Source: a virus. Taken from it: a DNA stretch of 35,574 bases. Shown here in pieces: positions 8,018-34,574 of this stretch. The stretch spans positions 1 through 35,574 of the IMG/VR virus record IMGVR_UViG_3300007541_007157, one strand, 5' to 3'. The notes below the pieces were generated by a model, which worked only from the letters and a program-made list of their open reading frames with translations, made no database searches and had not been told where the DNA came from. The translations under genes were made by a program, and so were the position numbers. Each line of letters begins with the position of its first letter. The stretch's first letter is position 1.

Positions 8018-8048
8018 TTTAAGTGTCTTTTTTATAAAGGCACTTAAA
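8018..8048. terminator. Bidirectional hairpin between convergent genes
   Basis: TTTAAGTGTCTTT (8018-8030) pairs with AAAGGCACTTAAA (8036-8048) across a 5-nt loop. The one mismatch is a G-U wobble in the plus-strand RNA. T-rich stretches follow on both sides. It separates the 111-residue gene from the end of the 21-gene cluster and overlaps the last stop codon of that cluster. Confidence 0.65.
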
Positions 8049-9006
8049 CTTGTTTTGTTACTTTTAAAAAATTTTCTTTATCTATATGTATTTCAATTCT
8101 GTGCAGAAGTCTTTTTTCTAACTGCTCGACAGTTAAAACATCATTACCATCTGTTCTTGCTCTTCTATGAATAGATACTTCTTGATCAAAATATATAATG
8201 TCACCGTTTTGCCATACATGATCATATGTATACTCTGGTGTTACATACTCAGTCATTATGTATTTTTTAAGATCTAAAAATTCTTGTTCTGTCTTACCAA
8301 CTATGCCTGTAATCTGACTTGGTGAAAAGTGTAGCCCTTCTTTGCCGCTTATATTTTTTCTAACTAGCGGTTGTTTCTTATCCATCCAATCACCGCCATA
8401 GCCTGTTTCTGCTGTTCTATATTTGTCATCAACATCGATAATTGCATCTTCACCTTCTACAAATCCCCATTGCATGATTGTATTTTTTAGTTCTTGTTTT
8501 TTTTCTTCTGACTCTAAATGATATCTATCAACCATTTGACAAATTTGTGTCATTGTTCCTTCTGTACCTTCGACTCCATGTAAACCAACTATTTCAGGTA
8601 AAGGTCTTTCTACTCCATTTATTAATTCACGTTCTGCTTCAGCACAATGCCAATTAAATCTTTTTGTAAAACCTCCTGCTAGTCCTTTATAGTCACCTTT
8701 TTCATTTTTGTATTTGGCAGTTACCATATCAAGCCCAGGCCATATAGGAGCACCTTGCTCATCTAAGTAGCCTGTTTTGTGTCCTGTAGGTACTCCTCGC
8801 TTTTGTCCATGTGTTGCTATTTGTCCAATACCTTCAGATAACTGGTAAAATTGATCTATACTGTAATGCACTTGAGGTAGTACAACCACTAGTTCTTGTT
8901 TACACAACTTTGATACTTCATCTAACTCGTCTTGAACAAAAGGATATTTTAGGTCTGTTATTTCAACACCAAAATTTCCAAAGTTCTTTAAAGGTTTAAC
9001 TTTCAT
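8044..9006 (-). CDS. TauD-like 2OG oxygenase with His-x-Ala motif (halogenase-like)
   Basis: The 320-residue protein has a TauD/TfdA-type layout: an N-terminal GVEITDLKYP strand, NWH at 118-120, and a C-terminal GDIIYFDQEVSIHRR with distal iron ligand H280 and R303 in LLHRIEI. In TauD the NWH is followed by Thr-Asp, so the iron ligand pair is H-x-D. Here it reads H120-Cys-Ala122, with Glu at 123. Loss of this carboxylate is the hallmark of Fe(II)/2OG halogenases (SyrB2, BesD, WelO5). The H-to-H distance (160) matches TauD (156). The protein may therefore be a halogenase, an oxygenase using E123, or inactive. It is the last gene of the 21-gene run and overlaps its paralog by 11 bases. Confidence 0.8.
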   Translation of the reverse strand: MKVKPLKNFGNFGVEITDLKYPFVQDELDEVSKLCKQELVVVLPQVHYSIDQFYQLSEGIGQIATHGQKRGVPTGHKTGYLDEQGAPIWPGLDMVTAKYKNEKGDYKGLAGGFTKRFNWHCAEAERELINGVERPLPEIVGLHGVEGTEGTMTQICQMVDRYHLESEEKKQELKNTIMQWGFVEGEDAIIDVDDKYRTAETGYGGDWMDKKQPLVRKNISGKEGLHFSPSQITGIVGKTEQEFLDLKKYIMTEYVTPEYTYDHVWQNGDIIYFDQEVSIHRRARTDGNDVLTVEQLEKRLLHRIEIHIDKENFLKVTKQV

Positions 9007-9997
9007 ATACTGCTTCTCCTTGCTTTTGTTTTAGTTCAGCATATGGATTTCTAGAATCTGGATATACTTCTATTCTATGAAGCAAACGTTTTTCTAATTG
9101 TTCAAGTGTAAGTCCTGCTACATTTTTATTAGCATCAGTTCTTCTATGAATACAAACCTTTTGATCCATATAGAATATATCACCATCTTGCCATTCATGA
9201 TTGTATATATATTTGTCAGTAATATACTCTTTCATTATATAATCTTTAAGTTTTTGGTATTTTTCATTGTCTTGACCAACTATCCCTACTATTTGACTTG
9301 GTGAAAAATGTAGGCCTTCTTTACCATTGACTGCTACCTGTACAAGTGATTGCTGTTTAGACAATGCTCTAGCAATACCTAATTCTTTTTGTACTGCTTC
9401 TTTATATTCATCAAACTGCCCCCATTCTGGTAATATAGCATCATCACCTTCTACAAAGCCCCAATTCATAATTGTATCTTTTAGTTCTTGTTTTTTCTCT
9501 GGTGTTTCCAGTTCATATCTATCAATCATTTGACAAACCTGTGTGATAGATCCTTCTGTTCCACGTACACCTTGTAGTCCTACAAAATCTGCTAATGGTA
9601 GTTCTACACCGTTGATGCTGTCTCTTTTGGCTTCAGCACAATGCCAGTTAAAAACTTTTGTTCCGCCGTTTGGCAATCCATCTACTTTACCATCGGCATC
9701 TCTTTTGGCAGTTACTTTATCTAGTCCAAGTAATAGAGGATAACCATTGTCATCAACATAACCGCCTTTGTATGTTGTTTTTTCATTTTCATTTAATCCA
9801 TACTTCCATACTGTTCCTAGGTTAGTTGATAATTCATAATATTGTTCTTTGGTATAGTTAATTTTTGGAAATACCATTACAAGATTTTCAACTAATAGTT
9901 TTTTTAATTCATCCATTTCTTCTTTAACAAATGGATATTTTACTCCTGTTACTGATATACCAATAGAGCCAAAGTTTTTTATTTTATCTATGTTCAT
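8996..9997 (-). CDS. TauD-like 2OG oxygenase with His-x-Ala motif, paralog
   Basis: The 333-residue protein is a close paralog of the downstream gene, with the same frame throughout (NFGSIGISVTGVKYPFV, GLHFSPSQIVGIVG, LEQLEKRLLHRIE). It also has H119-Cys-Ala121-Glu122 where TauD has H-x-D. H284 and R308 are conserved as distal iron ligand and 2-oxoglutarate anchor. Two diverged copies keeping the same unusual triad argues that the change is functional and not decay. Its start overlaps the preceding stop as ATGA. The substrate is unknown. The pair may act as a heteromer or on related substrates. Confidence 0.8.
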   Translation of the reverse strand: MNIDKIKNFGSIGISVTGVKYPFVKEEMDELKKLLVENLVMVFPKINYTKEQYYELSTNLGTVWKYGLNENEKTTYKGGYVDDNGYPLLLGLDKVTAKRDADGKVDGLPNGGTKVFNWHCAEAKRDSINGVELPLADFVGLQGVRGTEGSITQVCQMIDRYELETPEKKQELKDTIMNWGFVEGDDAILPEWGQFDEYKEAVQKELGIARALSKQQSLVQVAVNGKEGLHFSPSQIVGIVGQDNEKYQKLKDYIMKEYITDKYIYNHEWQDGDIFYMDQKVCIHRRTDANKNVAGLTLEQLEKRLLHRIEVYPDSRNPYAELKQKQGEAVYES

Positions 9998-10650
9998 GCT
10001 ACTAATTTCCTTTCTAGCATTTGTTTACGCACAAATAAATCTGCCAATACTTCAAAACTATAAGGGTAGTCAAAACAAATTGTAAAATTAATTCTTTGCT
10101 TTGATGAAGCAGTATCTACTGAATGGTAAATTGTTGTGTTAATTAATGTTGGTTGATCAATAAGTGTTTCACTTATTAATGTTTTGTTATCATTTTTCCA
10201 AAAACGTAATGGATTTTTATCCTGCTCTCCTACAAAAGGAATTAATATTGCCGCTACTCTGCCCATGTCTACATGAGAAGGTATTGCTTTATCTTCTTTT
10301 GCTCTTAAAAATCCATTTGATTTATACATTGGAAAAATAAATTGTTCTTCTACAAACTTTGGTGTTGGTACCTGAGCATATCCTTGTATGTCTCGGTATT
10401 CACCTTTGCCTGTTGACCCAAAGTTTGCTGAATCATATAGTTGCTGTATTTCTTCTTTGTTATATTTAAAGTTTGGCAACTTAATATATCCTAGTGTTAG
10501 TTGTTTATAAAATTTAAGATCATCTTGTAACTGCTCTTGTGAAATACCCATATATTCTTCTAAGGCTGTGATGTCTTTTTCTGTTGCTATATCATCACGA
10601 GCTCTAAGTTTGATTACATTTTCAATTTTGTTTATTGTTTCTGTTAGCAT
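9994..10650 (-). CDS. 2OG-Fe(II) oxygenase, Asp-hydroxylase-like
   Basis: The 218-residue protein has the beta-helix hydroxylase pattern: H126-x-D128 in IPSHVDMGRVAAILIPF, H176 in TTIYHSVD, and R186 in KQRINFTICFD. An N-terminal helical extension of about 50 residues precedes the catalytic fold. It shares the phrase LPNFKYNKEEI with the next gene's LPNFKVNYQEL, and its C-terminal layout resembles the genes at 10650 and 11275, so the three are probably a diverged family. The start shares one base with the upstream stop (TGATG). The substrate is unknown. Confidence 0.78.
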   Translation of the reverse strand: MLTETINKIENVIKLRARDDIATEKDITALEEYMGISQEQLQDDLKFYKQLTLGYIKLPNFKYNKEEIQQLYDSANFGSTGKGEYRDIQGYAQVPTPKFVEEQFIFPMYKSNGFLRAKEDKAIPSHVDMGRVAAILIPFVGEQDKNPLRFWKNDNKTLISETLIDQPTLINTTIYHSVDTASSKQRINFTICFDYPYSFEVLADLFVRKQMLERKLVA

Positions 10651-11273
10651 CAGTTTAATAATTCTCCATTACTAATCATATTTACTACTTTTTCAAAAGT
10701 GTACTTACCATAAAAACTTATTTGATAAGTAACCCTATCGCCGCCTTTGGTATTGTCTACTCCATGAAATATATCTCCACTACACTTCATTAATGTTGGA
10801 ACCTTAAAATTTAAATCAACTATTTTGTTTTTTGTGGTTGCTTCATATAATGTTGTTGGTGCTACATCAAAGTCACCATACACTGAAAAGAAAATAGCAC
10901 ACTCTCTTGGTAGATTGCTCCACTCGTCATTGTTTACTTTGGTTTTCATCAGTGCCATTGCTTCTTCGTTTTCATGTAAACTTGGCCAATCTACATGTGT
11001 GTCTTCGTGGGGTGGCAAATAACATCCTGGCCAACATTTGACATACCCTGACCATGTATAACAGTGATCTTTAAAATTTTGTTTAATTGTTTCTGGTATA
11101 ATTGGTTGTATGTAATCAGCATATGGATCTTTAGATCCTATTTGATTAGGATTGGCAGGATTTTCTAACCAAGCATTGCGAGAGTCTATGTCTTTTACTT
11201 CATCAATAAGTTCTTGATAATTAACCTTAAAGTTTGGTAACTCTAAATATCCTTTTTCAATTTGTTCAATCAT
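10650..11273 (-). CDS. 2OG-Fe(II) oxygenase, Asp-hydroxylase-like
   Basis: The 207-residue protein has H89-x-D91 (LPPHEDTHVDW), H170 (GDIFHGVDNTKGGDR) and R180, the expected iron triad and 2-oxoglutarate anchor of this superfamily. It contains four Cys residues (71, 80, 84 and 125) near the active-site part of the chain. It lies one base after the upstream gene's stop and is coupled to the downstream one by TGATG. It is probably related to its two neighbours. The substrate is unknown. Confidence 0.78.
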   Translation of the reverse strand: MIEQIEKGYLELPNFKVNYQELIDEVKDIDSRNAWLENPANPNQIGSKDPYADYIQPIIPETIKQNFKDHCYTWSGYVKCWPGCYLPPHEDTHVDWPSLHENEEAMALMKTKVNNDEWSNLPRECAIFFSVYGDFDVAPTTLYEATTKNKIVDLNFKVPTLMKCSGDIFHGVDNTKGGDRVTYQISFYGKYTFEKVVNMISNGELLN

Positions 11274-11274
11274 T

Positions 11275-11901
11275 TTAATTTAAAATTTTTCCTTTACTAT
11301 GTAATAATAACAGATTTTCCCATAGTTGTCTATTTAAAAATTCAGTGTCAAATGTTAATTGAAATGATATACGATCTTGTGTTGGAACTTTTATTGTGTG
11401 CATTTTTTGAGTGTTAACTATTGTAGGACCAGTATACTCGTGTTCAAATAAAAACTGGTCACCATCATAGAATTCTATAGGTGATGTTTCATCTGTCAAA
11501 CTTATGTGAATCATTGCTTCTCGCATTTGACTATCAGGTTTTCCATAATCATCTGTATGTTTTAGTAATTCAAACCCTTTTGGAAATTTTATAAACTGCC
11601 CACGCATGGCTGGTTGTAATATAGGATTAAACTGTTCTATTATTGATTGTATCAGTTCATATGCTTGTGATTGTGTTTCGTAGTCTACATACTCTAACTG
11701 TTTAAATAAGTTATGACCTGTTTGTCCGTCATAGTTATAAATGTCATAATCATTTTTACTTACAAAATAAAGTGTTGTTTGATTTTTAGAAATAAAAGAC
11801 GTTACCCCAAAGTCATCAACCACTTGTAGTAACTTTGACTTATTATATTTTAAACCTTTTATTTCTAAAATATAATCTGACTTATCAATTGTTTCTACCA
11901 T
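11275..11901 (-). CDS. 2OG-Fe(II) oxygenase, Asp-hydroxylase-like
   Basis: The 208-residue protein carries H115-x-D117 (LLKHTDDYGKPDSQ), H168 (NTQKMHTIKV) and R177 (QDRISFQLTFD). The order of elements and the C-terminal sequence (FLNRQLWENLLLL) resemble the two genes downstream. Its first codons overlap the end of the desaturase gene by 17 bases. It would hydroxylate an unknown small molecule or peptide in the cytoplasm. Confidence 0.78.
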   Translation of the reverse strand: MVETIDKSDYILEIKGLKYNKSKLLQVVDDFGVTSFISKNQTTLYFVSKNDYDIYNYDGQTGHNLFKQLEYVDYETQSQAYELIQSIIEQFNPILQPAMRGQFIKFPKGFELLKHTDDYGKPDSQMREAMIHISLTDETSPIEFYDGDQFLFEHEYTGPTIVNTQKMHTIKVPTQDRISFQLTFDTEFLNRQLWENLLLLHSKGKILN

Positions 11902-12640
11902 GTGTTGTTTTTTCTAAAAAGAAATGTTTTATGATCCAAGCAGGTAAATCAATTTCCCACCATTTTTCTTTGTTTGTCCAACTGGTTGGTTTTTCATGAT
12001 GAGTGTTATGTAAACCACTACCTAATGTTAAAATGTTTACCCATGTATTATTTGTACTATGATCTTTTGTGTCAAACAATCTATATCCCCATTTATGACA
12101 AACTGTATTAACTAACCCGGCACTGTGAAAAGTAATCACTGCTGGTAACGATATTAAAAACACTGCTATACGCCAATCAATTAGTGCTACAATTAAATAT
12201 GTTCCTAACAATAATTTTAAATAGTGTTGATGTATAAATTTAATCCATGTGTCTTTTACTAGATCAGCAACAAACTTTCTTTCAATTGTAAATGGTTCCC
12301 AAAAAGTTGACCATATACGCCACATTGGTTGACCACCATGTGGATCTTCTTTGGTTTCTGGAACTGCATGATGCTTTCTATGTATTCCGCACCAAGCAAT
12401 AGGTGATCCAAAACAATTAAACATACTTAAAACAATAAGCAATCTTGATTTCCAATATGATGTTTCAAAACTTTTGTGTGTTAGATATCTGTGTAGTGCT
12501 ATCTCCCCGCCAATTTTTCCAAACACTATCCAACCAATAAAAGATAGCCATAACCATTCCCATCCAACATACACTAGTCCTATAATGGCTAATATATGAT
12601 TGGCTAATAAAATTAATTTTAATTTATACTCGTAACTCAT
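11885..12640 (-). CDS. Fatty-acid desaturase (delta-9 type)
   Basis: The 251-residue membrane enzyme would insert a double bond into an acyl chain using a di-iron centre. The three histidine boxes are complete: H50-x4-H55 (HRYLTHKSF), H87-x2-HH91 (HRKHHAVPE) and H211-x2-HH215 (HNTHHEKP). Hydrophobic segments flank them (about 9-45, 65-82 and 143-175). It is short but within the range of bacterial acyl-lipid or acyl-CoA desaturases. Electrons could come through the ferredoxin reductase encoded in the same run. A second, diverged desaturase lies at 30953. Confidence 0.92.
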   Translation of the reverse strand: MSYEYKLKLILLANHILAIIGLVYVGWEWLWLSFIGWIVFGKIGGEIALHRYLTHKSFETSYWKSRLLIVLSMFNCFGSPIAWCGIHRKHHAVPETKEDPHGGQPMWRIWSTFWEPFTIERKFVADLVKDTWIKFIHQHYLKLLLGTYLIVALIDWRIAVFLISLPAVITFHSAGLVNTVCHKWGYRLFDTKDHSTNNTWVNILTLGSGLHNTHHEKPTSWTNKEKWWEIDLPAWIIKHFFLEKTTHGRNN

Positions 12641-13352
12641 TTGCTGTTATTATATACTCTTTATATTTATTTGCACTCTTTTTTAATAGTATGTTGTGTT
12701 TTTCTGTATTTACAGTTCCTATAATAAATCCAACAATACGTTCATCATCAATACCAGGTTTAGGATCCATACCATGTAATTGTGTACAGTGATTTATAAC
12801 GTAAGCATCTGTATTTTTTGGAATATTACAGTATACTTTGTTTTTTCCTTGTTCGTCTTTGCACATATATAAAGTATCTCTTGAACCATGTACAATAAAT
12901 CTATAGCCTATTGGTTCGTTTTCTAATTGATGATCTAGTACTGCTTGAGGGTTGTCAACGTAACTAGGTACATCTATATAAGCGCCACTACTATCCATCA
13001 TACGACCAACGTATCCAACTGACGCTCCATCTGTGTGTGGAAGTACATGACCTTTTGCTCTTTCTAAACGTGCATCTAATATAGTTTCAAATGGATAGTA
13101 GTCATCAATCCATTTAATTAAATCAGGGTATGTTTTACGAGCAAAACTATTCCATGTTCCTTTATCTGATAACTGTTGTGCTTTCCATTGATAAAATACA
13201 TCAGATGCTTGTGATAAAGTATCATCACTAACATCTCTAAAAACTAACTCTTTATCTTTACCATATCCTACTGCTTGAGTTTTACCATAAAAATTTTTTA
13301 TGATTATATCTTTATTTGGTATAGGTGGTATATCTAACGGTAGAAATAACAT
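12624..13352 (-). CDS. 2OG oxygenase, tandem family copy A
   Basis: This is one of four adjacent paralogs sharing the N-terminus L-P-L-D-I-P-P-I-P-N-K, a central NEPIGYRFIV-GSRDTLYMC block, and a C-terminal HG-DP-PGIDDERIVGFI block. Here (242 residues) the iron triad is H106-x-D108 (LPHTDG) and H193, with R205 as the likely 2-oxoglutarate anchor. AGGAG lies eight bases before the ATG, which shares a base with the preceding stop. The family looks like a small Asp-hydroxylase-type dioxygenase. The substrate is unknown. Confidence 0.75.
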   Translation of the reverse strand: MLFLPLDIPPIPNKDIIIKNFYGKTQAVGYGKDKELVFRDVSDDTLSQASDVFYQWKAQQLSDKGTWNSFARKTYPDLIKWIDDYYPFETILDARLERAKGHVLPHTDGASVGYVGRMMDSSGAYIDVPSYVDNPQAVLDHQLENEPIGYRFIVHGSRDTLYMCKDEQGKNKVYCNIPKNTDAYVINHCTQLHGMDPKPGIDDERIVGFIIGTVNTEKHNILLKKSANKYKEYIITANELRV

Positions 13353-14116
13353 TAAATCGTCTCCTTACTATACCATGGAAGATCTTGCTTTGATAAAGAA
13401 TAACTTTTATATACATTATAACTTTTTTCTATTAATTGTTTGTGTTTATTTGGATCAACTATCCCATCTATAAATCCAACTACACGTTCATCATCTACTG
13501 ATTCTTTTGGATCCATACCATGCATTTGTGTACAATGATTAATAACATAAGCATCTGTTTCTTTTGGTGTTGAACAAAAAACTTTTTGCTGTGTATTATT
13601 TTCATTACACATATATAAACTATTGCGACTTCCACTAACAATAAATCTATAGCCTATTGGTTCGTTTTCTAGTTGGTGTTTATAAATTGCTTGTGGATTT
13701 GTAACTTCATTAGCATACGGTATTTTAACACTGTTGCCTTTACTATCTGTCATTACTCCTTCAAAAACATGATTATCCCAATCATAAGCATCAGTATGTG
13801 GTAATATACTTTGTTGAGCCCTATCTAATCTTACATCTAATTTTTGTGTAAAAGGAAAATTATCATCAATCCATTGAATAAGCTCTGGGTATGTTTGCCT
13901 AGCAAATTCATTCCATTCACCATCTTCTAATAGATTTTGTGTTTTCCATTTGTAAAATACATCGCTGGCTGAATCAATCTTTTTTTGATCAGTTTCAATT
14001 AACATAAGGTCATTGTTAGAATCATATCCTACAACTTTTGTATTTCCATAAAAATTTTTTAAAATTTTTTCTTTATTTGGAATAGTAGGGACATCTAATG
14101 GCACAAAAAGAATCAT
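13352..14116 (-). CDS. 2OG oxygenase, tandem family copy B
   Basis: At 254 residues this is the longest of the four paralogs. The triad is H107-x-D109 (LPHTDAYDWD), H199 (TQMHGMDPKE), with R211. It is closest to copy A by eye, sharing NFYGNTK/NFYGKTQ and SASDVFYKWKTQ/QASDVFYQWKAQ, which suggests a recent duplication. The region just after the HTD motif, likely near the active-site mouth, differs most. It overlaps copy C by four bases (ATGA). Confidence 0.75.
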   Translation of the reverse strand: MILFVPLDVPTIPNKEKILKNFYGNTKVVGYDSNNDLMLIETDQKKIDSASDVFYKWKTQNLLEDGEWNEFARQTYPELIQWIDDNFPFTQKLDVRLDRAQQSILPHTDAYDWDNHVFEGVMTDSKGNSVKIPYANEVTNPQAIYKHQLENEPIGYRFIVSGSRNSLYMCNENNTQQKVFCSTPKETDAYVINHCTQMHGMDPKESVDDERVVGFIDGIVDPNKHKQLIEKSYNVYKSYSLSKQDLPWYSKETI

Positions 14117-14862
14117 GTTACCATTTCCTTGGTCATTACATATTTTTTATATTTTTCAGCACTACGTTGTACTAGTTCTTTGTGTTCTTTAGGTTTAACT
14201 AAACCAATAATAAATCCAACAATACGGTCATCATCAATCCCTGGTCTTGGATCAACACCATGTGGTTGCGAACAGTTATCAATTACATAAGAGTCTGTGT
14301 CTTCAGGTATTGTACAATAGTGTTTTTTATCATCAGATAATTTTACTCGTTGATCTTTAGACATATATAAAGTATCTCGCGATCCACTTAGAATAAATCT
14401 ATAACCTACAGGTTCATTTGCTAATTGATGTTCATATATAGCATCTTCAACTGCTGTGTGTTTAAATAGTTCTGTTTTTGGAAAAGGACAAACTTTACCA
14501 TCATTTAATTTTTTATATAAATCATCTGCTTGTTGAGATACCCAAAACAGATTATTGTCCACATGTGGATCTGCTTTGTATAATCTTCCTAGTTTAATTA
14601 AAAAATACTTTTCAAAAGGCAGGTTTGTTTGCACCCAATCCATTATTTCAGGAAAATCTTTTTTAGCCGTATCAGTCCATTCTTCGTTTCTCCAATATAA
14701 ATTTGTGTCAGTCCAATGAGCAAAACGATCAGTGATTGTCATATTTTCTTTTTCTATTTCTATACGACCACAATGTCCTGTAACATAAGTTGTTCCTACA
14801 AATCTTTTTACTAATTCTGGCTTGTTTGGTATAGGTGGTAAGTCTAGTGGTACAAATATCAT
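14113..14862 (-). CDS. 2OG oxygenase, tandem family copy C
   Basis: The 249-residue paralog has H100-x-D102 (ADPHVDNN), H201 (SQPHGVDPRPG) and R213. It has a longer insert after the HxD motif (about 108-140) than the other copies and a different N-terminal third. The metal ligands and the GYRFILSGSRDTLYM block are intact, so it is likely active. Four-base overlaps on both sides indicate translational coupling. Confidence 0.75.
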   Translation of the reverse strand: MIFVPLDLPPIPNKPELVKRFVGTTYVTGHCGRIEIEKENMTITDRFAHWTDTNLYWRNEEWTDTAKKDFPEIMDWVQTNLPFEKYFLIKLGRLYKADPHVDNNLFWVSQQADDLYKKLNDGKVCPFPKTELFKHTAVEDAIYEHQLANEPVGYRFILSGSRDTLYMSKDQRVKLSDDKKHYCTIPEDTDSYVIDNCSQPHGVDPRPGIDDDRIVGFIIGLVKPKEHKELVQRSAEKYKKYVMTKEMVT

Positions 14863-15518
14863 TTTAGGTCTTCCTTATAAACTACATACTTTTTATATTT
14901 ATCTGCACTACGTTTTATTAATTTTTGATGCTCTGCTGTGTTTACTTTGCCTAGTATAAATCCAACAATGCGATCATCATCTATGCCTTGTTTAACATCT
15001 ACACCATGAGGTTGCGTACAATTGTTAATTAAAAAAGCGTCTGTTTCATTAGGTATTGTGCAAAACCATTTTTGTTGATTGTTCATATCTTTAGAATAGT
15101 CATACTCTTTGCACATATACAATGTATCTCTTGATCCGCTAACAACAAACCTATAGCCTATTGGTTCATTTGCCAATTGGTGATCTAACATTTTTTGAGT
15201 TATTGTCATATGATGTGGATGTGGTGCTGTAACGTAATTGCCATCCACATGCGGTGCAACATTACCAGTTGATCTTGCAAGTCTTACATAAAATTTATAT
15301 TCAAATGGAAAATATGTGTCTATCCATTCAATCAAATTTGGGTATGTTAAATGTGCAGATAACTCCCATTGTCTTGATTCTCCAAACGGTTCATCTAAAT
15401 TTTTAGTTCCTAGTAGTGTTTCTTCTTTCCACCAAGCAAACTTTTCAGAACCAATAAACTTATCAAGAATAGATTGTTTATTTGGTATTGGAGGTATATC
15501 TAACGGAGTAAAAATCAT
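14859..15518 (-). CDS. 2OG oxygenase, tandem family copy D
   Basis: At 219 residues this is the shortest of the four. The triad is H90-x-D92 (APHVDGNY), H171 (TQPHGVDVKQG), with R183. The segment between the N-terminus and the HxD is about 15 residues shorter than in A and B, and a His-rich stretch (APHPHHM) follows the motif. It begins the four-gene array directly after the ferredoxin reductase gene, with an ATGA overlap. Confidence 0.75.
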   Translation of the reverse strand: MIFTPLDIPPIPNKQSILDKFIGSEKFAWWKEETLLGTKNLDEPFGESRQWELSAHLTYPNLIEWIDTYFPFEYKFYVRLARSTGNVAPHVDGNYVTAPHPHHMTITQKMLDHQLANEPIGYRFVVSGSRDTLYMCKEYDYSKDMNNQQKWFCTIPNETDAFLINNCTQPHGVDVKQGIDDDRIVGFILGKVNTAEHQKLIKRSADKYKKYVVYKEDLK

Positions 15519-16273: not shown

Positions 16274-16279
16274 TTTTAT

Positions 16280-17494: not shown

Positions 17495-18981
17495 GAATAT
17501 ACCCTCACTTTGTGTTTTTGTTCAAATGCATCTGCATGTTGTCTTGTGTTTACCAAAGGTTCGCCTTTGATGTTTAAACTTGTATTCAATAGCATTGGAC
17601 AACCTGTTTGATCATAGAACTTTTTGATTAGTTTATAAAATCCTGGTGCTTCACGTTGTGTCACAGTTTGTACACGTGAAGTACCGTCAGCATGTATGAT
17701 TGCTGGAAATTCTTGTGGCTTTCTACATATCGCCACTGCCTGCATGTACGGTGATGCTGTTATACCACCTGGCATTGTAAAATACTCATGTACATGTTCT
17801 TCTAGGATAGCAGGAGCAAAAGGTCTAAACTTCTGTCGTTTCTTAATATCATTTACTCTGTCTTTGATTTCACCTCCTCTAGGATCTGCAAGTAAACTTC
17901 TATTACCCAATGCTCTTGGACCAAACTCTGCTCTACCACTTGCAACTCCAATGATGTTGCCATTCATCAGTGCTTTGCAGGCACTGTCCACAGGATAGTC
18001 GCCTTCAATGTTTGTGCCTAAAAATGGACCTTGCCAATTTAGTTTATCACCATATCCCAATGCCGCGGCGCCTAGTGAGTTACCTGCATCACCTGGATTA
18101 GGCATAATCCATATGTTTTGATTTTTATTGTACATCAACGAGTTGGCTACACAATTAAGTGCAACTCCGCCCATCCATACAATGTTCTTTTGTGAACTGT
18201 ATGAACGTGCTATTTCAAACAGTGTAAGAATTTTCTTTTCAATCACTTGCTGTATTGATGCCGCTACATCATATGAAAATTGATGATCAAGCAATGGCAT
18301 GTGTGGCATCCATTCTTCAATACCAGCATGAACATTTCGTTTTAGTTTCAAAGGATCACGTTCATCAAAGAAATATGTTTCAATGTCTTTGACATATTTA
18401 GGTTCACCGTACGCCGCCATTCCCATTAGAATGTATTCTTCTTCGTTTGGCTTTAGTCCAACTCTTTGTGTGAATGCTGAATACAATAGTCCTAGTGAAT
18501 GTGGATACTGATATGTTTTTAATCTTTTTAAACCATTTGGTGCTGTGTAATCCCATATAGATATTGTGTCAAACTCTCCTATTGCATCAGCAACAATAAC
18601 ACAGGCACTGTTGTATGGTGATGTGTATGCTCCTGCGGCCGCATGTGCTTTGTGATGTTCTACATATTCTAATTTGTGGGGCACCATGTGTTGAAACTGT
18701 TTCATATACTGTGATGGTAGATTATCTGTTTGGAATACTTCACTCCATTGTCCAGCAACCATTTGTCTACGTTTTTTCAACCAAGGTCTTTCATGCCATA
18801 TAACACGATCTGGATCACCATGCTCTAGTGCTTCGTTGATTATTTCATCGCATAGATCTGAATCATTTTTTACTCGTGTATATCTTTCTGTGTGAGCCGC
18901 AAACACTATTTCGCCATCTTTAACCACAGACAGAGATCCGTCATGTCCTAGTCCACATACGCCCCAAATTGTTTTACTCAT
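17491..18981 (-). CDS. Carbamoyltransferase, NodU/CmcH/TobZ family
   Basis: The 496-residue enzyme would transfer a carbamoyl group from carbamoyl phosphate through a carbamoyl-adenylate to a hydroxyl, commonly on a sugar. The Kae1-like N-terminal domain has GLGHDGSLSVV (11-20) and the metal-binding HHKAHA (109-114). The C-terminal domain has GRAEFGPRALGNRSLLADPR (349-368), FRPFAPAILEE and LNTSLNIKGEP. It ends about 50 residues earlier than the longest family members but is complete. Homologs occur in marine T4-like phages. Its position next to a UDP-sugar dehydrogenase suggests a carbamoylated sugar. Confidence 0.92.
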   Translation of the reverse strand: MSKTIWGVCGLGHDGSLSVVKDGEIVFAAHTERYTRVKNDSDLCDEIINEALEHGDPDRVIWHERPWLKKRRQMVAGQWSEVFQTDNLPSQYMKQFQHMVPHKLEYVEHHKAHAAAGAYTSPYNSACVIVADAIGEFDTISIWDYTAPNGLKRLKTYQYPHSLGLLYSAFTQRVGLKPNEEEYILMGMAAYGEPKYVKDIETYFFDERDPLKLKRNVHAGIEEWMPHMPLLDHQFSYDVAASIQQVIEKKILTLFEIARSYSSQKNIVWMGGVALNCVANSLMYNKNQNIWIMPNPGDAGNSLGAAALGYGDKLNWQGPFLGTNIEGDYPVDSACKALMNGNIIGVASGRAEFGPRALGNRSLLADPRGGEIKDRVNDIKKRQKFRPFAPAILEEHVHEYFTMPGGITASPYMQAVAICRKPQEFPAIIHADGTSRVQTVTQREAPGFYKLIKKFYDQTGCPMLLNTSLNIKGEPLVNTRQHADAFEQKHKVRVYS

Positions 18982-19285
18982 CTATTTTTACCTTTATAAT
19001 TTTAATCCATTTTGCAAACTGCTTTGCTTTTTCTATTGATTCTATATTAGTACTATGATTTAAAAAAGCATCAGCATTATTATTGTTGTTAAAATAAACT
19101 TCACAGACAGTTATATTAGCATTTGTGTTTACTTCTTGACCCCATCTAGTTCCTGTAGGTGCATCAAACTTTATAAAACCTGGCAATTGTTTTACCCAAT
19201 CATACCACGACTGTTCTGATTCTTTATATTCATTATAATCTGTATCAAAACTACTTACTTCACTTATAATTAATAGTTTAATCAT
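18974..19285 (-). CDS. Small protein, unknown (possible ferredoxin-like fold)
   Basis: I do not recognise this 103-residue protein. The alternation IKLLIISEVSS, SWYDWVKQLPGF, ITVCEVYFNN, ADAFLNHSTNIESIEKAKQFAKWI, IKIIKVKID suggests a beta-alpha-beta fold of the ABM/ferredoxin-like kind, but no signature residue confirms it. It overlaps the carbamoyltransferase by eight bases and the SDR gene by four, so it is part of the same operon and may be a small accessory or monooxygenase-like subunit. Confidence 0.6.
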   Translation of the reverse strand: MIKLLIISEVSSFDTDYNEYKESEQSWYDWVKQLPGFIKFDAPTGTRWGQEVNTNANITVCEVYFNNNNNADAFLNHSTNIESIEKAKQFAKWIKIIKVKIDE

Positions 19286-19806
19286 CTTGCACTTAATACC
19301 ATATGTTTAATTTCACTTGGCTGTTCAATTATCCATTTTACTGTGTCAATAATTTCTTGATAAGATAATTTAGGGCCAAGATAGTCTTTGTTAAATTCTG
19401 TATCAACATAACCTAAAGCCAATGTTGTTATTTTACATGTACGTTTTTGATTTTGTAATAGTTCTGCGTGTGAATGTAATGCAACTTTTTGAACAGGATA
19501 CATTTGATGTACTACTTGCCAATTAGTATAAGGTACACTATCAACACCTATATTGATAATTAATTTGTTTTTGTCTTTCCATGCAGTAAACATTTCGTCT
19601 AACATTTCTACTTGTCCAAATCCTTCATGTGCATTATTAATAAACACATCACAGTTTATACAAGAATGAATTATCTTTGTTCTTGAATCTTTATCAGTAA
19701 TATCATGACCTGTAGATCTACTTATACCTAATGCATTTGGAAATGCTTCATACAATGCTTTACCAATTTTTTTAGTATACCCTGTTATTGCTATTTTTTT
19801 ATTCAT
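19282..19806 (-). CDS. Short-chain dehydrogenase/reductase, compact
   Basis: The 174-residue protein is a compact SDR. The NAD(P)-binding motif is TGYTKKIGKAL (8-18), the NNAG-equivalent is NNAH (57-60), a Ser lies at 90, and the catalytic pair is Y103-x3-K107 (YPVQK). The usual SDR is 230-250 residues, so this one lacks part of the Rossmann helices or the substrate cap. All catalytic positions are present, so it is probably active. It would reduce a ketone or oxidise an alcohol on the cluster's unknown product. Confidence 0.8.
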   Translation of the reverse strand: MNKKIAITGYTKKIGKALYEAFPNALGISRSTGHDITDKDSRTKIIHSCINCDVFINNAHEGFGQVEMLDEMFTAWKDKNKLIINIGVDSVPYTNWQVVHQMYPVQKVALHSHAELLQNQKRTCKITTLALGYVDTEFNKDYLGPKLSYQEIIDTVKWIIEQPSEIKHMVLSAR

Positions 19807-20683
19807 CTATTACCTCATATGCTGGTGTTAGACAAACTCTGTTAACACCATTATCTCTCTTAAATCTATTCCATTCACTATCATATGTTGTGCCAAGCAA
19901 ATAAGAATCACTTGGTTGTAGATTAAATTGCTTACAAATATCATACTGCATTTTACTGTATTGTTGTTTTTTAGCAAACACACTACTGTTTAATGTTACT
20001 GCTTTAAATACATCTATAATGGCATGGTTAAAATATCCTACACCTTGAAGTTCTTGTTGTATTGCTTCTTGTTCTCTAGAAAATCTAACTCCTGCTCTTA
20101 ACAATCCAAGTCCGTATGGTTTTGAACAACTCCAAAATACTTCGCGAACATTGTCATATAAATTTATTTTATACTGTCCTGTTGTTCCAGCAAATGCTAG
20201 ATCTAAATATATTGGACAAATTTGTTTTAATCCTACTTCGTCATATCTTTTATCAAAATTGCCTGTAGCACTAAATGGATTACTCATATACAAAGGAATA
20301 TCAGCAATTAAATCACTTGTTGTTTTAGCAATATTAATAGGTTTTTTCATAAACAATGGATATCTATATTCTCCTTCAAACACTTGATACTTGTCAACTT
20401 TTATACACATCCAATCTATGCTTTCATGTATTCCATTTGTTGGATATGCCCATTGTAATTGTGATAAATCAATAAAAGGATCTAGATAATTACGTATTTG
20501 TTCTTGACAAGTTTCCCAACGTATTCTTCTTTTTACTGATGGCGTTTTGTCATTCTCATTTGTACTTTCAACATACGAATTATAACTTTTTGTTAATGCA
20601 TTTTTAATAGTCATATCTGTAGGAGAATGTATTGCTTTGCTTTTACCAAAAGTTTCATTTGTTATATTCATTGTTATTATCAT
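19799..20683 (-). CDS. Short PLP-dependent aminotransferase-like protein (fold type I)
   Basis: The 294-residue protein has the landmarks of class I/II aminotransferases in order: PTNGIHESID (81-90), SNPFSATG (134-141, the NPxxxTG turn), IYLDLAFAG (158-166, with D161 expected to contact the pyridine nitrogen) and SCSKPYGLGLLRAG (185-198). K188 would form the Schiff base with PLP. The family normally has about 400 residues. This one has lost much of the C-terminal small domain, although that region also carries substrate-binding residues in standard enzymes. It may be an aminotransferase or a related lyase or decarboxylase. Its start shares one base with the upstream stop. Confidence 0.75.
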   Translation of the reverse strand: MIITMNITNETFGKSKAIHSPTDMTIKNALTKSYNSYVESTNENDKTPSVKRRIRWETCQEQIRNYLDPFIDLSQLQWAYPTNGIHESIDWMCIKVDKYQVFEGEYRYPLFMKKPINIAKTTSDLIADIPLYMSNPFSATGNFDKRYDEVGLKQICPIYLDLAFAGTTGQYKINLYDNVREVFWSCSKPYGLGLLRAGVRFSREQEAIQQELQGVGYFNHAIIDVFKAVTLNSSVFAKKQQYSKMQYDICKQFNLQPSDSYLLGTTYDSEWNRFKRDNGVNRVCLTPAYEVIDE

Positions 20684-21342
20684 TACATTTCTCTCATATG
20701 TTTACAAACTGTGGCTACTGTTTCGTCATTAACATCAACATTAACTACAAGCCAATATGCCGGATCAAAGTTAGCATTAAACAAATAATGCATCTTAGCA
20801 GTATCAACAAAGTAAACAACACCTTGATGCCAATGTAATAATTTATCTTCAAGAACAAAGTTCATTCCTGGTGGATTACAGTTTTTTAAAGGAACTATTA
20901 ATCTAAAGGTATCAAATACAATTTTATTTGTATGATGAAAATCTTCATCTGGATGATCTCTATGCGGTGGAAAAAACCCACCGGGTTCTAATTTTAATAT
21001 ATGTGTTCTAAATATATGATTACCAAATAAACTTAAAAACTTTTTTAAAGATTTCCATTCAAATACCGGTGTTGGTACTTTAAAATCTCTTTCTGTCCAT
21101 TGTGTTCCATTTTCTTTGTTATATTCAAAAACACTATCTAAATCAGGTATACCTGACATTCCGCCATCTAAACTTGTAATACTTAATCCATATCTGTTAA
21201 CTTTTTTTCTTGGATTATACCTTACATAAGTAAAGTTTTTTTCTGTCCATTCAATAAACTCTTCACTATCAAACATATTTAAAACTAAAGGATATTGACT
21301 TCCAAAAGTTGTTAAATCTCTATATAAACTGTTCTTATTCAT
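20683..21342 (-). CDS. 2OG oxygenase-like protein lacking the usual Arg
   Basis: The 219-residue protein resembles the Asp/Asn hydroxylase group, with H127-x-D129 (FFPPHRDHP) and H185 (TAKMHYLFN). The Arg that normally follows the distal His by about ten residues is missing; the stretch reads FDPAYWLVVNVDV. The co-substrate may therefore be held differently, or activity may be lost. It overlaps the radical SAM gene by four bases, which suggests the two act on the same substrate. Confidence 0.72.
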   Translation of the reverse strand: MNKNSLYRDLTTFGSQYPLVLNMFDSEEFIEWTEKNFTYVRYNPRKKVNRYGLSITSLDGGMSGIPDLDSVFEYNKENGTQWTERDFKVPTPVFEWKSLKKFLSLFGNHIFRTHILKLEPGGFFPPHRDHPDEDFHHTNKIVFDTFRLIVPLKNCNPPGMNFVLEDKLLHWHQGVVYFVDTAKMHYLFNANFDPAYWLVVNVDVNDETVATVCKHMREM

Positions 21343-22505
21343 ATATATGTTTTATCTCCAGGCCATAATGGCATTTGTGTTCCTTCAGCACGTTTTGGTA
21401 TTTTTGAATCAGCACTTGATACACAACTACGTGAAATACATTTTTCTGGTTTATCAAATAATTTAAATCCTGTTTCAATATTACCCAAAGGTTTGTCATC
21501 ACAACTGTAACTTCTTTTTATACTACCATCTGGTTCTCTAATAATAATTGATCTGTAACCTGATGAACATTCCCAACCAGTAAACTGATTAAAATTAAAT
21601 GCATTGAATCTTTCTGCTTGATCCATAAACCATGCTTTGTTATCTTTGTCTCTAAACTCTACTTGAAAGTGTTGCGGTACTCCTTCTGAGTAAGTTTGTT
21701 TTTGTAGTGTTCTATCTTCATCAATTTTATATGTAGGCTTTGGTCTTGTTACATATTTGTTTTTTGCTTCAGTAAATCCACGTTGTGGCATACCATTCCA
21801 TAATCTTTTTAACATATCATCTGTGTAGCCATCTACACGTTTAGATGCTGTAGGATCTGACTGTGGTTTAAGTGTAACATTAATACCTCTGTTGTGAAAG
21901 TACAATGACTCTTCATATAGTTCATCAAACCATTCTGGCACCATAACTTGATTGATTGTTACTTGAACATCATGCTCTTGAACAAAACATAACTTGTCTG
22001 CAAACTCTTCTCGCTTTTCTTGTGTATTCACATGCTCTCTGTGATAACTTGCTGTTATACTTGCTCTGTGAAAAGGTGCTACTGCACTAACATACTGTTC
22101 AAACCATTTCATTGGTCTTGAACAGTTTGATGTCATATGGACAGAAGTATAATTAGTATTTGTTGTATCATCAGCAAGATGCTGAAGAATATCAAGGTAA
22201 CCAGGATGAAACGTAGGCTCGCCTCCAGAAAGAGAGAAATGGAAACTATTAAAGCCTCGCTCTCTTGCCTGTCTTTTGATTTCATCAATGGTAGCAAGAC
22301 AAAGCTCAGTAGGCCTATGATCTTTTCTGTCACTCCTAGCATACGGCCAACAGTATGAACACCTGTAATTACAAAACCTACCAAGAAGCCAACTAACTGT
22401 AAACAAGTCCCTATAAAGCATAGTACGTTGTCCAACACGTACGAGATCATCGTACGGAATTTGTGTAAAATCATATTCACTCCATTTTAGATCTGTCATT
22501 GCCAA
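21339..22505 (-). CDS. Radical SAM protein
   Basis: The 388-residue protein has the radical SAM cluster motif C45-x3-C49-x2-C52 (CNYRCSYC), SGGEP at 94-98, and a C-terminal Cys-containing region (about residues 312-366: WECSSGY, SYSCDD, CISRSC) that could hold an auxiliary cluster. It differs from the twitch proteins because the auxiliary Cys lie after the core and not before it. It overlaps both neighbours by 4-10 bases. The substrate is unknown. Confidence 0.88.
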   Translation of the reverse strand: MAMTDLKWSEYDFTQIPYDDLVRVGQRTMLYRDLFTVSWLLGRFCNYRCSYCWPYARSDRKDHRPTELCLATIDEIKRQARERGFNSFHFSLSGGEPTFHPGYLDILQHLADDTTNTNYTSVHMTSNCSRPMKWFEQYVSAVAPFHRASITASYHREHVNTQEKREEFADKLCFVQEHDVQVTINQVMVPEWFDELYEESLYFHNRGINVTLKPQSDPTASKRVDGYTDDMLKRLWNGMPQRGFTEAKNKYVTRPKPTYKIDEDRTLQKQTYSEGVPQHFQVEFRDKDNKAWFMDQAERFNAFNFNQFTGWECSSGYRSIIIREPDGSIKRSYSCDDKPLGNIETGFKLFDKPEKCISRSCVSSADSKIPKRAEGTQMPLWPGDKTYI

Positions 22506-23713
22506 TACTCTTTGAATTCTGGATACACTGACAAGAACTCTGTTTGATTTAATTTATCCATAGTTGTAATATACTCTCTAGTATCATCTGTCAATCTATC
22601 CACATTGATACTGGTATTATTCATATATTGTAACACATATTCACTCCACTTTGCAATCTTATTGTGTCTGGTTTGTTTTATTTTTCCTGACAGATCTGCA
22701 ACTGTGTTTCTAACCTGTTTGTTGACTTGTTGCTTTAATTCATTAGGTAGATACTGCACATTGATTGCCTCTGGATACTGTACCAAACTACAGTGCATGG
22801 GCAAGTCTAACTTGTTGTAGTATTCTATCACATAGTGCAACTTGGTTATGTTATACAATGATGTTGTGCAGGTTGCTGTCAACATCACATTGTCTAACTG
22901 CTGTAATTGTTTTATGTTGTGTTCTATTTTGGCAAGGTCACTGCCTGTTCTAAGATAACTGTGTGTGCTTTCATCACCGTCAATACTGACCCTACAGTTT
23001 ACCTGTTTAAAGTGTCGCCATAGATCAATCACCTGCTTGTCACCCTGTGCAATTGAATTTAGATTGCTGTTGTATTCAAGTGTTATGTTTTTTGCATATG
23101 GCAATAGTTTTTCCAATGCTTCATAGTGTTGTGGTTGTATCAAAGGTTCGCCGCCTGCAATAACTATTTCTTCTACTGTGGGTGCTATGTCATCTATCAC
23201 TTGATCCAGTGTTTCAGCAGGTAGTTTGGCTATGCCACGCCATGTGCTGGTTTCTGTGAGTTGATATTTGTCAAACAGTGTTTTAACATCTTGATGTTTG
23301 TTGTAGGCCACTGCCCATGTAGAACTGTATATAGATGAACAGTGTCTACATCTCAAATCACACACATTGCCAAAACGCAATTCGATTGTGCGAACATTCA
23401 TTGGCAATGCGCCATCTTTGACTGTGTCAAGTATGCTAGGAATCATATCAGCATACTGTTCATTGCACTGTTGCCGTGTTGACTTTGTGTGTGATTGTTC
23501 CATGTCCCAACAGCTCTTGCAACCTTCGTGCTGTATTCCGTTTAGTAGATTGTTTCTAATCTGTTTGTAATTTTCGTTGTTCCATATATCTTTTAATTTT
23601 TCTTCGCCATAGTGTCCCAGCAGATCGTGATTGCGCCAACAGGCACTCACATAACCTTTTGGTTTGAGGTTCATGTGTATGAACGGCATTATGCAAAATG
23701 TTTTACTTGTCAT
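22496..23713 (-). CDS. Twitch-domain radical SAM protein, GC-richer gene
   Basis: The 405-residue protein has the same plan as the genes at 3362 and 24613. N-terminal auxiliary Cys are at 7, 25, 65 and 68, followed by C118-x3-C122-x2-C125 (CDLRCRHC) and AGGEP (186-190). The base composition differs from its neighbours: two 60-base lines I counted have 42% and 48% GC, against 28% in a line of the adjacent PP-loop gene. This points to separate acquisition. It overlaps the PP-loop gene by 11 bases. Confidence 0.88.
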   Translation of the reverse strand: MTSKTFCIMPFIHMNLKPKGYVSACWRNHDLLGHYGEEKLKDIWNNENYKQIRNNLLNGIQHEGCKSCWDMEQSHTKSTRQQCNEQYADMIPSILDTVKDGALPMNVRTIELRFGNVCDLRCRHCSSIYSSTWAVAYNKHQDVKTLFDKYQLTETSTWRGIAKLPAETLDQVIDDIAPTVEEIVIAGGEPLIQPQHYEALEKLLPYAKNITLEYNSNLNSIAQGDKQVIDLWRHFKQVNCRVSIDGDESTHSYLRTGSDLAKIEHNIKQLQQLDNVMLTATCTTSLYNITKLHYVIEYYNKLDLPMHCSLVQYPEAINVQYLPNELKQQVNKQVRNTVADLSGKIKQTRHNKIAKWSEYVLQYMNNTSINVDRLTDDTREYITTMDKLNQTEFLSVYPEFKEYWQ

Positions 23714-24629
23714 TATCTTTCTTTACTGATTCCTTTGCCCATTGTCTTTCAACACACCAAAAGCATGGATTATCTAAATTTTTTTCTGTACATGTAATTA
23801 ACTTTGTTTCTTTATGAATATAAGTTGGAATTATCTCATTTGATTGACTATCATAAAGATTAGAATAATCACCTTCACAACTTCTTGTTGTGTTTAATAA
23901 GTCTTCCCAGCCATTTTTATAAAATTGATTAAGCACAAAATCTTTTTTAACAAGTAACCATGGAAATATTCTTTCACTTGTTTTGTTATATAAATGACTA
24001 AATTTTTGGATTGATAGTTGATATTGTGGTGGATACTTTCTTGTAGAAATCCATGTATCAAGTTTATCTTCACTCCATACTCTATCACTTGTATTCATCC
24101 AGTCATTTACTGATTTAGTATTTTCAGTTATATAATTTTTTAAATCTTCTTTTACAGGATTTAAAGTTGTAAAATTATAAACGGCTTCTAATTTATATTC
24201 ACTTGTTGCAAAAATATTAAAACTTGAAACAATTACAACATCACCAAATGCATTAAGTTTATCAATCTTTCCTAACGAGCCAGCTTCTAATTCAGGTGGT
24301 ATAAAACTTTTAATTTGTTGCATAGATACATTTGGATACATACTTTTAATTTTATTAAAAACATCAACAAATATATATCTTTGCCATGGACGATTTATCC
24401 ATCCACGCACATGACTTATTACTACTATTTCAGTATTGCAATTTAATTCAGTAATTAATTTACAAAGTATTGCTAGACCACAGGCACTATCTGCTCCGCC
24501 ACTAAGATTTACACCAACTTTTTTCCAAGATGGATTAAAGTAGAACAACTCTCCATTGATATCATGTAAAAAATTTTTATCTATATTGTCATAACTATTG
24601 TATGCTTTATTGTTAAGCGACTGTTTCAT
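23703..24629 (-). CDS. PP-loop ATPase with QueC-like zinc motif
   Basis: The 308-residue protein has the ATP-pyrophosphatase loop SGGADS (43-48). It also has a C-terminal Cys group C251, C280, C289, C292 with CFWCVERQWA, resembling the zinc site of QueC (CGxCxxCxxR). Enzymes of this type adenylate a carbonyl and then add nitrogen or sulfur: QueC makes a nitrile, others make amides or thiolated bases. No other queuosine or archaeosine gene is visible here. The protein sits between two twitch radical SAM genes with overlaps of 17 and 11 bases, so a joint pathway is likely. Confidence 0.8.
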   Translation of the reverse strand: MKQSLNNKAYNSYDNIDKNFLHDINGELFYFNPSWKKVGVNLSGGADSACGLAILCKLITELNCNTEIVVISHVRGWINRPWQRYIFVDVFNKIKSMYPNVSMQQIKSFIPPELEAGSLGKIDKLNAFGDVVIVSSFNIFATSEYKLEAVYNFTTLNPVKEDLKNYITENTKSVNDWMNTSDRVWSEDKLDTWISTRKYPPQYQLSIQKFSHLYNKTSERIFPWLLVKKDFVLNQFYKNGWEDLLNTTRSCEGDYSNLYDSQSNEIIPTYIHKETKLITCTEKNLDNPCFWCVERQWAKESVKKDNDK

Positions 24630-25878
24630 AAATATTTACTCCTATAATTTTTTCTAACTCTGGAAAGGTTTCTTTCCAATCTTCATTGCGTATTGTATCA
24701 AACAAATATGCTTTTTCAATAAACTCTCTTTTATTATCTGTAATACTATTTTGTTGTAAAACTAACAATACTTTTTTAATATCTTTTTTAATATAAGGAT
24801 ATCTAGAAATATCTTCAAAATCATTAGATAAAAAGTTTAGTATATTTTTTCTAACTCTATTATTAAAATTACGTATTGAAAGATATGTTGGTGTTTGTGC
24901 AATTGTCATATCAAACGAAAATTTATTTGATAGTTTTTCTTTTGCAAAAAAAGATTCCATCCAATCAATAAATTCTTTTAAGTATAAAACATTAAATATT
25001 GATACTGTGTGACTTATTGATATAAAAACGTTTGAGTTTTCTGATGCAAAACTTTTCCAACTATTTGCTGTTTCTAAAACCTTTGGCCATTGTGACCCTT
25101 TTCTTAAAAATTCTGCTCGTGTCCCAATTCCATCTAGACTTAGAGTAACTTTTACTTTTTTAAAATAAGGAAGCAGTTTACGAAAAGTATGTTTTGGAAA
25201 AAACGAACAGTTTGTAAAAACTTCAATGCTTATGTTTTTTGCCAAATCCCATTTAACTAGATTAGCAAGAAATATTTGAAACTGATCGTTTAGAAAAGGT
25301 TCTCCGCCAGTGGCCTTGACATTTTTTAAATCTTTAACTACTTCATATGATATATCAGCAATCTCTTGATTTGTTTTTGGTAATTTTTTTATTTGATGAT
25401 ATAAATCAATATCGCCTCCATAAAAATTTTCAACTGCTTTATGATTATTATCTAAGTCTTCGTCCCATGTTGTAGACAAATTTGGACCACATGATCGACA
25501 TTTTAAATTACAATATCTGCCTGTTTGTATTTCTAAAAATTCTAACTTTGTGTCTGTATAATCTATTTCTTGTTGAGAACGATAAGGAACTTCCTGATCT
25601 GAATTTGATTCACTATCTAATGCACAAGTTCTCATTGATTTTCCTCCTAATTCTTCTTCTTGATAACATCTCCAACACCCTTGTATTTTTTCTCCATTGA
25701 TTGCTTTTTGTCTTAGATCTTTCCATAATAAGTTATAACCATCTTTAAAAGATATTGCATATTTTTCTTTATTTTTTTGATATCTACAACAAGGAACTAT
25801 TTCTGATTGAGGCATACTTAGATTAGCCGCTCGAAATAGAAATGGGCAATAGGTTTTATTTGTTTTTAGATCAATCAT
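24613..25878 (-). CDS. Twitch-domain radical SAM protein, first gene of the cluster
   Basis: The frame can be extended upstream to a TTG at 25914, but I start at the ATG at 25878. A perfect TATAAT ends eight bases before that ATG, and the -35 box lies where the extension would be, so the longer form would not be transcribed from this promoter. The resulting 421-residue protein has auxiliary Cys at 11, 30, 31, 68 and 71, the core motif C123-x3-C127-x2-C130 (CNLKCRSC) and GGEP at 191-194. No Shine-Dalgarno sequence precedes it, so the message is probably leaderless. The substrate is unknown. Confidence 0.85.
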   Translation of the reverse strand: MIDLKTNKTYCPFLFRAANLSMPQSEIVPCCRYQKNKEKYAISFKDGYNLLWKDLRQKAINGEKIQGCWRCYQEEELGGKSMRTCALDSESNSDQEVPYRSQQEIDYTDTKLEFLEIQTGRYCNLKCRSCGPNLSTTWDEDLDNNHKAVENFYGGDIDLYHQIKKLPKTNQEIADISYEVVKDLKNVKATGGEPFLNDQFQIFLANLVKWDLAKNISIEVFTNCSFFPKHTFRKLLPYFKKVKVTLSLDGIGTRAEFLRKGSQWPKVLETANSWKSFASENSNVFISISHTVSIFNVLYLKEFIDWMESFFAKEKLSNKFSFDMTIAQTPTYLSIRNFNNRVRKNILNFLSNDFEDISRYPYIKKDIKKVLLVLQQNSITDNKREFIEKAYLFDTIRNEDWKETFPELEKIIGVNIYETVA

Positions 25879-31708: not shown

Positions 31709-31719
31709 TTTGTACCTTT

Positions 31720-31748: not shown

Positions 31749-31750
31749 TA

Positions 31751-34525: not shown

Positions 34526-34528
34526 TAA

Positions 34529-34568: not shown

Positions 34569-34574
34569 AAAACT

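Follow-up and report, generated by a model that had tools for sequence, protein, structure and literature searches.

A phage-borne run of radical S-adenosylmethionine, oxygenase and sugar-type enzyme genes that may make a carbohydrate-type product during infection

Gene content and boundaries of the run

IMG/VR virus record IMGVR_UViG_3300007541_007157, analyzed here as one complete record of 35,574 bases (hereafter the window), contains a run of 21 minus-strand open reading frames (ORFs), g01 to g21, that a sequence-only reading had described as a single phage-borne operon resembling a biosynthetic cluster. All 21 ORFs were confirmed where that reading had placed them (Table 1). Its census is likewise correct: three radical S-adenosylmethionine (SAM) proteins, a PP-loop ATPase, an aminotransferase-like protein, a short-chain dehydrogenase/reductase (SDR)-like protein, a carbamoyltransferase, a UDP-sugar dehydrogenase, a ferredoxin reductase, a desaturase and ten oxygenases of the Fe(II)/2-oxoglutarate (2OG) type, to which one small, unassigned protein (g08) is added. 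About half of these assignments are made at the level of motifs, as g02, g06, g07, g12-g15 and g17-g19 have no Pfam match above threshold.

Specifically, g01 and g03 score 263.9 and 327.1 bits against the curated NF033640 cut-off of 170, and both contain the CxxxCxxC motif, while g04, at 38.6 bits, falls outside this family and is a different radical SAM protein. Both carbamoyltransferase Pfam domains and the HHxxH metal motif are present in g09, the nearest solved relatives of which are GdmN, the novobiocin carbamoyltransferase and TobZ. These enzymes carbamoylate antibiotic hydroxyls, two of them sugar hydroxyls, and carbamoyl transfer to a hydroxyl is the reaction predicted for g09. The best family for g11 is E. 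coli Fpr, with a score under that family's cut-off. With respect to the oxygenases, the top fold matches of the g12 model are all 2OG oxygenases (E at best 3e-3, template modelling scores mostly 0.3-0.4), which supports, without proving, this assignment. Profiles of g02, g12-g15 and g17-g19 found no match among solved structures, and a structure model of g06 (predicted local distance difference test score of 38) was too poor to interpret.

Junctions between successive genes, from g01 to g21, measure -17, -11, -10, -4, -1, -8, -4, -8, -4, +6, -4, -4, -4, -1, -17, -17, +1, -1, -4 and -11 nt, matching the range from a 17-nt overlap to a 6-nt gap that had been reported. For g04, the ATG at 22499 is probably the start, in preference to the TTG at 22505, because a 4-nt ATGA overlap results. 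The putative promoter preceding g01, which would leave a leader of a few nucleotides at most, gains weight because its -10 box (TGTATAAT or TGTATACT) is retained in three relatives. Within the run, consensus promoter matches occur at chance level (101, versus 100.5 +/- 9 in shuffled sequence); internal promoters are therefore not callable and were not used to split the run. The sole minus-strand terminator-like match inside it (22442-22423) is weak, and the run has no credible internal terminator. The hairpin at its end folds with -14.4 kcal/mol (z = -4.5). Since ten further minus-strand genes (27116-35573) are almost as densely packed, the close packing of the 21 genes is, taken alone, ordinary, and transcription as a single operon is presumed here as part of the best overall explanation.

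Table 1. Features of the run and related genes in the window
Feature	Position	Strand	Basis or remark
Putative promoter, TTGATT-17-TATAAT, before g01	25886-25914	-	-10 kept in G003, G004, G013
g01, N-terminal-twitch radical SAM	24613-25878	-	NF033640 2.6e-78, above cut-off; CNLKCRSC
g02, PP-loop ATPase, QueC-like layout	23703-24629	-	SGGADS and C-terminal Cys motif
g03, N-terminal-twitch radical SAM	22496-23713	-	NF033640 1.6e-97
g04, radical SAM, most widespread member	21339-22499	-	not NF033640-type
g05, Asp/Arg beta-hydroxylase-like 2OG oxygenase	20683-21342	-	PF05118 6e-4, below its cut-off; HRD motif
g06, short pyridoxal-phosphate aminotransferase-like (D161, K188)	19799-20683	-	motifs kept in distant cellular homologues
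g07, short SDR-like	19282-19806	-	sequence motifs TGxxxxIG, YxxxK
g08, 103-aa protein	18974-19285	-	small ORF at comparable place in relatives
g09, NodU/TobZ-type O-carbamoyltransferase	17491-18981	-	PF16861 5.7e-55, PF02543 9e-38, phrog_1601 6e-103; HHKAH
g10, nucleotide-sugar (UDP-glucose-type) dehydrogenase	16280-17494	-	catalytic Cys motif
g11, ferredoxin/flavodoxin-NADP+ reductase, Fpr-like	15515-16273	-	NF008178 4.9e-38, below cut-off; RAYS motif
g12, 2OG-oxygenase-like, conserved member of tandem set	14859-15518	-	HVD...H; model fold
g13, paralogue of g12	14113-14862	-	
g14, paralogue of g12	13352-14116	-	
g15, paralogue of g12	12624-13352	-	
g16, membrane fatty-acid-desaturase-type	11885-12640	-	PF00487 9.7e-14; histidine boxes HRYLTH, HRKHH, HNTHH
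g17, 2OG-oxygenase-like	11275-11901	-	HTD...H...R
g18, 2OG-oxygenase-like	10650-11273	-	HED...H...R
g19, 2OG-oxygenase-like	9994-10650	-	HVD...H...R
g20, TauD-family, HCA replacing HxD	8996-9997	-	PF02668 1.3e-9; motif
g21, TauD-family, HCA replacing HxD	8044-9006	-	PF02668 3.1e-16; motif
End hairpin, probable terminator, shared with convergent plus-strand gene 7668-8003	8018-8048		fold
N-terminal-twitch radical SAM outside the run	3362-4603	+	
d3, radical SAM, usual partner of the N-terminal-twitch gene, outside the run	4604-5779	+	

Conservation in related phages and in Bdellovibrionota

Five closely related contigs (G001-G004 and the 328-kb G013), in which g09 is 82-92% identical to that of the window, keep the order g01-g03-g04-(g05)-g06-g07-g09-g10-g11-g12, usually together with g16, and mostly retain the genes upstream of the run (u1-u12). 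The run is phage-borne, as had been proposed, and across these five relatives it is one conserved collinear run with no scattered singletons. A fixed unit of 21 genes it is not, as a core of g01, g03-g07, g09-g12 and g16 is joined by a variable oxygenase end. Variable members comprise g02, which is absent from the run in all five relatives; g13-g15, extra copies of g12 that are present here and have a similar pair in contig L188; and g17-g21. Additional radical SAM genes lie between g10 and g11 in G001, G002 and G013. The oxygenase end of G013, located at the same end of the run, reads g16-g18-g18-g19-(292 aa)-g21, and L188 encodes two g12-type genes, g19 and g21 in the order seen in the window. 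The HCA motif of g20 and g21 recurs in L188, while the G013 copies have HND, HNA or HNN, and the Glu at +3, which varies along with the motif, may act as a substitute ligand. In Fe(II)/2OG halogenases, the Asp ligand is replaced by Ala or Gly (HxA/HxG).

The core is kept under purifying selection: in comparisons with G003 and G004, the ratio of nonsynonymous to synonymous differences (pN/pS) is 0.06-0.11 for g09 and g10 and 0.15-0.35 for g04-g07, g11, g12 and g16. Taken singly, g10 (0.06-0.09) and g09 (0.08-0.22) have the lowest values, and g04 has 0.12-0.17. At the DNA level, the complete run had no match among 50,697 phage records, and single-sequence scans with g06, g15 and g21 likewise found nothing; alignment queries for g06 and g21 matched only in the known clade and L188.

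Beyond these close relatives, each of the 22 related jumbo-phage contigs tested encodes 7-21 N-terminal-twitch radical SAM proteins, and none scored above the cut-off in 14 control genomes. Widespread across these jumbo phages is g04. Each of the distant arrays in G005, G007 and G008 is made up of approximately 30 genes, most of which overlap, including up to about 10 radical SAM genes with PP-loop genes of the g02 type adjacent to them; g04 (then g05 or g07) is in terminal position, and the opposite strand carries the phage core genes u10-u12. Among 61 ORFs scanned from two such arrays, 19 are radical SAM genes, and the two also encode a mannose-6-P isomerase, an NTP-transferase, a CTP-transferase-like protein, a UDP-glucose dehydrogenase and an aminotransferase. 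In 24 of 50 viral g09 loci, several of them near-copies of one another, a g10 gene is encoded no more than 8.3 kb away on the same strand, and this linkage persists although gene order and identity (about 50%) have changed. Of 12 contigs tested, 6 have the T4-type capsid gene gp23; the closest relatives, which are fragmentary, lack gp23 but contain tail fibre, DNA polymerase and PhoH genes. By eye, a repeat protein of 938 aa next to g09 in G005 resembled a glycosyltransferase, but it had no structure match and is not claimed as such.

Homologues of g04 that are 57-67% identical are also found on contigs of Bdellovibrionota up to 936 kb in length, where they are usually flanked by d3 and a 470-aa N-terminal-twitch radical SAM gene. 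Family 2 glycosyltransferases (GT2) account for 13 of the 90 other ORFs neighbouring these homologues in the 224 kb read, compared with approximately 0.8 expected from 58 in about 15.6 Mb of four genomes, the two counts having been made at slightly different thresholds. Other genes nearby encode NAD epimerases, GDP-mannose dehydratase, DegT and QueC. These genomes carry 4-19 N-terminal-twitch radical SAM copies, and one 30-kb chromosomal island (L186-L187) holds about 13 such genes together with g05-like and g06-like genes and one encoding a StrB-like (inosamine-phosphate-amidinotransferase-like) protein. In a g04 tree, the root of which is not fixed, a single supported clade (100/97) unites the marine phage sequences and lies beside Bdellovibrionota, suggesting that g04 has been exchanged rarely.

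Five contigs from metagenome-assembled genomes (L161, L162, L173, L180 and L185) also carry g04, and L185 carries phage core genes as well. The genomes are named Rickettsiales, Gammaproteobacteria, Chloroflexi and Acidimicrobiaceae; the contigs themselves are jumbo-phage-like, were probably binned by contamination, and were rejected as evidence of host.

A proposed carbohydrate-type product and its alternatives

Of the explanations considered, we favour, at a probability of roughly 0.48, one in which the run forms an operon by which a T4-like marine jumbo phage, during infection, synthesizes and tailors a product of the carbohydrate (glycan-precursor) type. Sugar chemistry is the best-supported theme of the run, and such a product is favoured because of g10 itself, its recurrent linkage to g09, the sugar-nucleotide genes of the distant arrays and the glycan-related surroundings of the bacterial homologues. 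Within a single pathway of this kind, g10 would oxidize a nucleotide sugar, and g01, g03 and g04 would carry out difficult C-H or C-O chemistry upon the sugar, of the dehydration, epimerisation or deoxygenation type. Amination and reduction would fall to g06 and g07, respectively, activation of a carboxylate toward an amide or nitrile to g02, and carbamoylation of a hydroxyl to g09, with the 2OG oxygenases and desaturase hydroxylating or desaturating the product. Fpr works with flavodoxin as an electron supplier, and by analogy with this role g11 could provide both the desaturase and the radical SAM enzymes with electrons that travel via a flavodoxin or ferredoxin of the host. The end product would most likely enter a host envelope glycan, and would probably alter the envelope such that receptors are changed or the infected cell is shielded.

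Several observations weigh against this explanation. Firstly, no GT2 gene (PF00535) was found in seven phage contigs, other glycosyltransferase families not having been searched, so that a complete route of glycan assembly is not visible there. Secondly, the solved structures that come closest to the radical SAM proteins, although they match weakly, are SkfB and the anaerobic sulfatase maturase, which have peptide or protein substrates. Additionally, the oxygenase end differs among close relatives, and not all 21 genes are therefore needed for one product. The sequence-only reading had likened the run to natural-product or modified-glycan clusters and suggested one pathway. The glycan-type likeness stands as far as sugar chemistry goes, the missing GT2 counting against it; a single pathway confined to a single operon is too narrow a view, since radical SAM genes are expanded across the whole phage genome and the run accounts for only part of that expansion. 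A wider account, which we consider unlikely, is that a genome-wide radical SAM and oxygenase system with up to 21 twitch paralogues, exchanged with Bdellovibrionota, makes a new aminocyclitol- or sugar-like product that is carbamoylated, hydroxylated and possibly halogenated, and that remodels or shields the cell.

Similarly unlikely is an account in which the genes are independent auxiliary genes, co-transcribed without a shared product, the oxygenases, for example, merely lowering 2-oxoglutarate. Single genes are gained and lost within the run, and in a proposal by Sullivan et al. the role of 2OG oxygenases is to modulate host 2OG, the same authors raising the question of whether lipopolysaccharide (LPS) clusters are perhaps stuffer DNA (PMC3037559), but the conserved core order, the strong purifying selection on g04, g09 and g10, the g09-g10 linkage and the radical SAM set common to phages and bacteria all count against this account.

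Rather more doubtful is modification of a ribosomal peptide, or of a virion or host protein, by the radical SAM and 2OG enzymes. This account keeps some weight because of the solved relatives named above and because g01, g03 and g04 have mostly peptide or protein maturases as neighbours in NCBIfam and the PDB; in addition, Asp/Asn hydroxylase-type and B12-dependent C-methyltransferase-type genes lie nearby. Radical SAM enzymes of the SPASM/twitch kind, however, act on sugars and aminocyclitols too; neither the sugar dehydrogenase nor the carbamoyltransferase has an obvious part in a peptide route; and no precursor gene was recognizable among the listed ORFs of at least 60 aa, no peptide-specific search having been made, g08 being small but variable.

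Least probable is hypermodification of phage DNA against host nucleases, in which g09 would carbamoylate a hydroxymethylated base and the other enzymes decorate it further: a phage-encoded NodU/TobZ-type carbamoyltransferase of the same family does yield 5-carbamoyloxymethylcytosine (PMC8670742), g02 is similar to the 7-deazaguanine enzyme QueC, and thymidylate synthase genes adjoin the arrays of G005 and G008, but these synthases are of the ordinary type, with Asn where cytosine-modifying forms have Asp, which makes DNA modification less likely, and they lie on the opposite strand in a phage core block. The cytosine-type homologue that partners the 5-hydroxymethylcytosine carbamoyltransferase was not found by motif search of the G005 and G008 stretches read, and carbamoyltransferases of unmodified contigs have been reported beside glycosyltransferases (PMC8670742). 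Co-occurrence of g09 with a sugar dehydrogenase and the chromosomal location of the same radical SAM set in bacteria argue in the same direction.

Relation to known systems and other features of the window

Cyanophages are known to carry large sugar/LPS clusters as well as carbamoyltransferase genes. The LPS/carbamoyltransferase clusters of S-SSM7 and S-CAM1, likewise large T4-like phages of marine origin, resemble the present run in that same-strand genes overlap and a g09-family carbamoyltransferase accompanies sugar genes (PMC3037559). The cyanophage clusters are nevertheless built of kinases, isomerases and nucleotidyltransferases instead of radical SAM enzymes and 2OG oxygenases, their carbamoyltransferase is about 31% identical to g09, and S-SSM7 lacks N-terminal-twitch radical SAM proteins. 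Pelagibacter phage Mosig EXVC030M similarly clusters TauD, desaturase, Asp/Arg hydroxylase, aminotransferase, three MoaA-like and carbamoyltransferase genes, but on both strands, without N-terminal-twitch radical SAM or UDP-sugar dehydrogenase genes and with g09 identity of about 30%. The 183-kb T4-like marine genome TARA_ERS488813_N000010, with 12 radical SAM genes, possibly belongs to the same broad group, as judged by its description, which sets these genes in Fe-S metabolism and mentions no operon, sugar locus or link to Bdellovibrionota (PMC5332604). The Bdellovibrionota GT2 islands share with the phages clustered g04, d3, N-terminal-twitch radical SAM, g05-like and g06-like genes; unlike the phage run, they are chromosomal, contain glycosyltransferases and have genes on both strands.

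In a literature search from which subscription papers were largely missing, no account was found of this operon, of the 21-fold expansion or of the link to Bdellovibrionota. The run therefore appears to be new in form, whereas sugar/LPS clusters, carbamoyltransferases and multiple radical SAM genes in phages were already known. If the favoured explanation is true, few phage-encoded tailoring pathways would be larger than this run, and a role could be assigned to a radical SAM family that has multiplied in marine jumbo phages as well as in Bdellovibrio-like bacteria and is apparently uncharacterised in the literature found. The run also makes testable the old question of whether sugar-type clusters in large marine phages function, and what their products are; g09 with g10, and g04 with d3, are small sets suited to expression and assay.

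Elsewhere in the window, one minus-strand run encodes a TonB-dependent receptor (31751-33580), a DUF6580 membrane protein (33561-34103) and a KedN5-type B12-dependent radical SAM methyltransferase (28572-30422), and the phage may take up cobalamin and use it. The receptor is restricted to the clade of the window, and no cobalamin riboswitch was found near its gene, the IS009 match being far below its gathering score. Divergent from the operon are a 2OG hydroxylase-like gene and a plus-strand gene (26793-27119) for a 108-aa SET-domain protein that is conserved in close relatives. At the end of the window, where the assembly stops, a truncated gene contains a low-complexity Ala/Gln repeat (35400-35574). 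A minus-strand tRNA-Arg(gcg) gene (1198-1274) adjoins a lysozyme gene.

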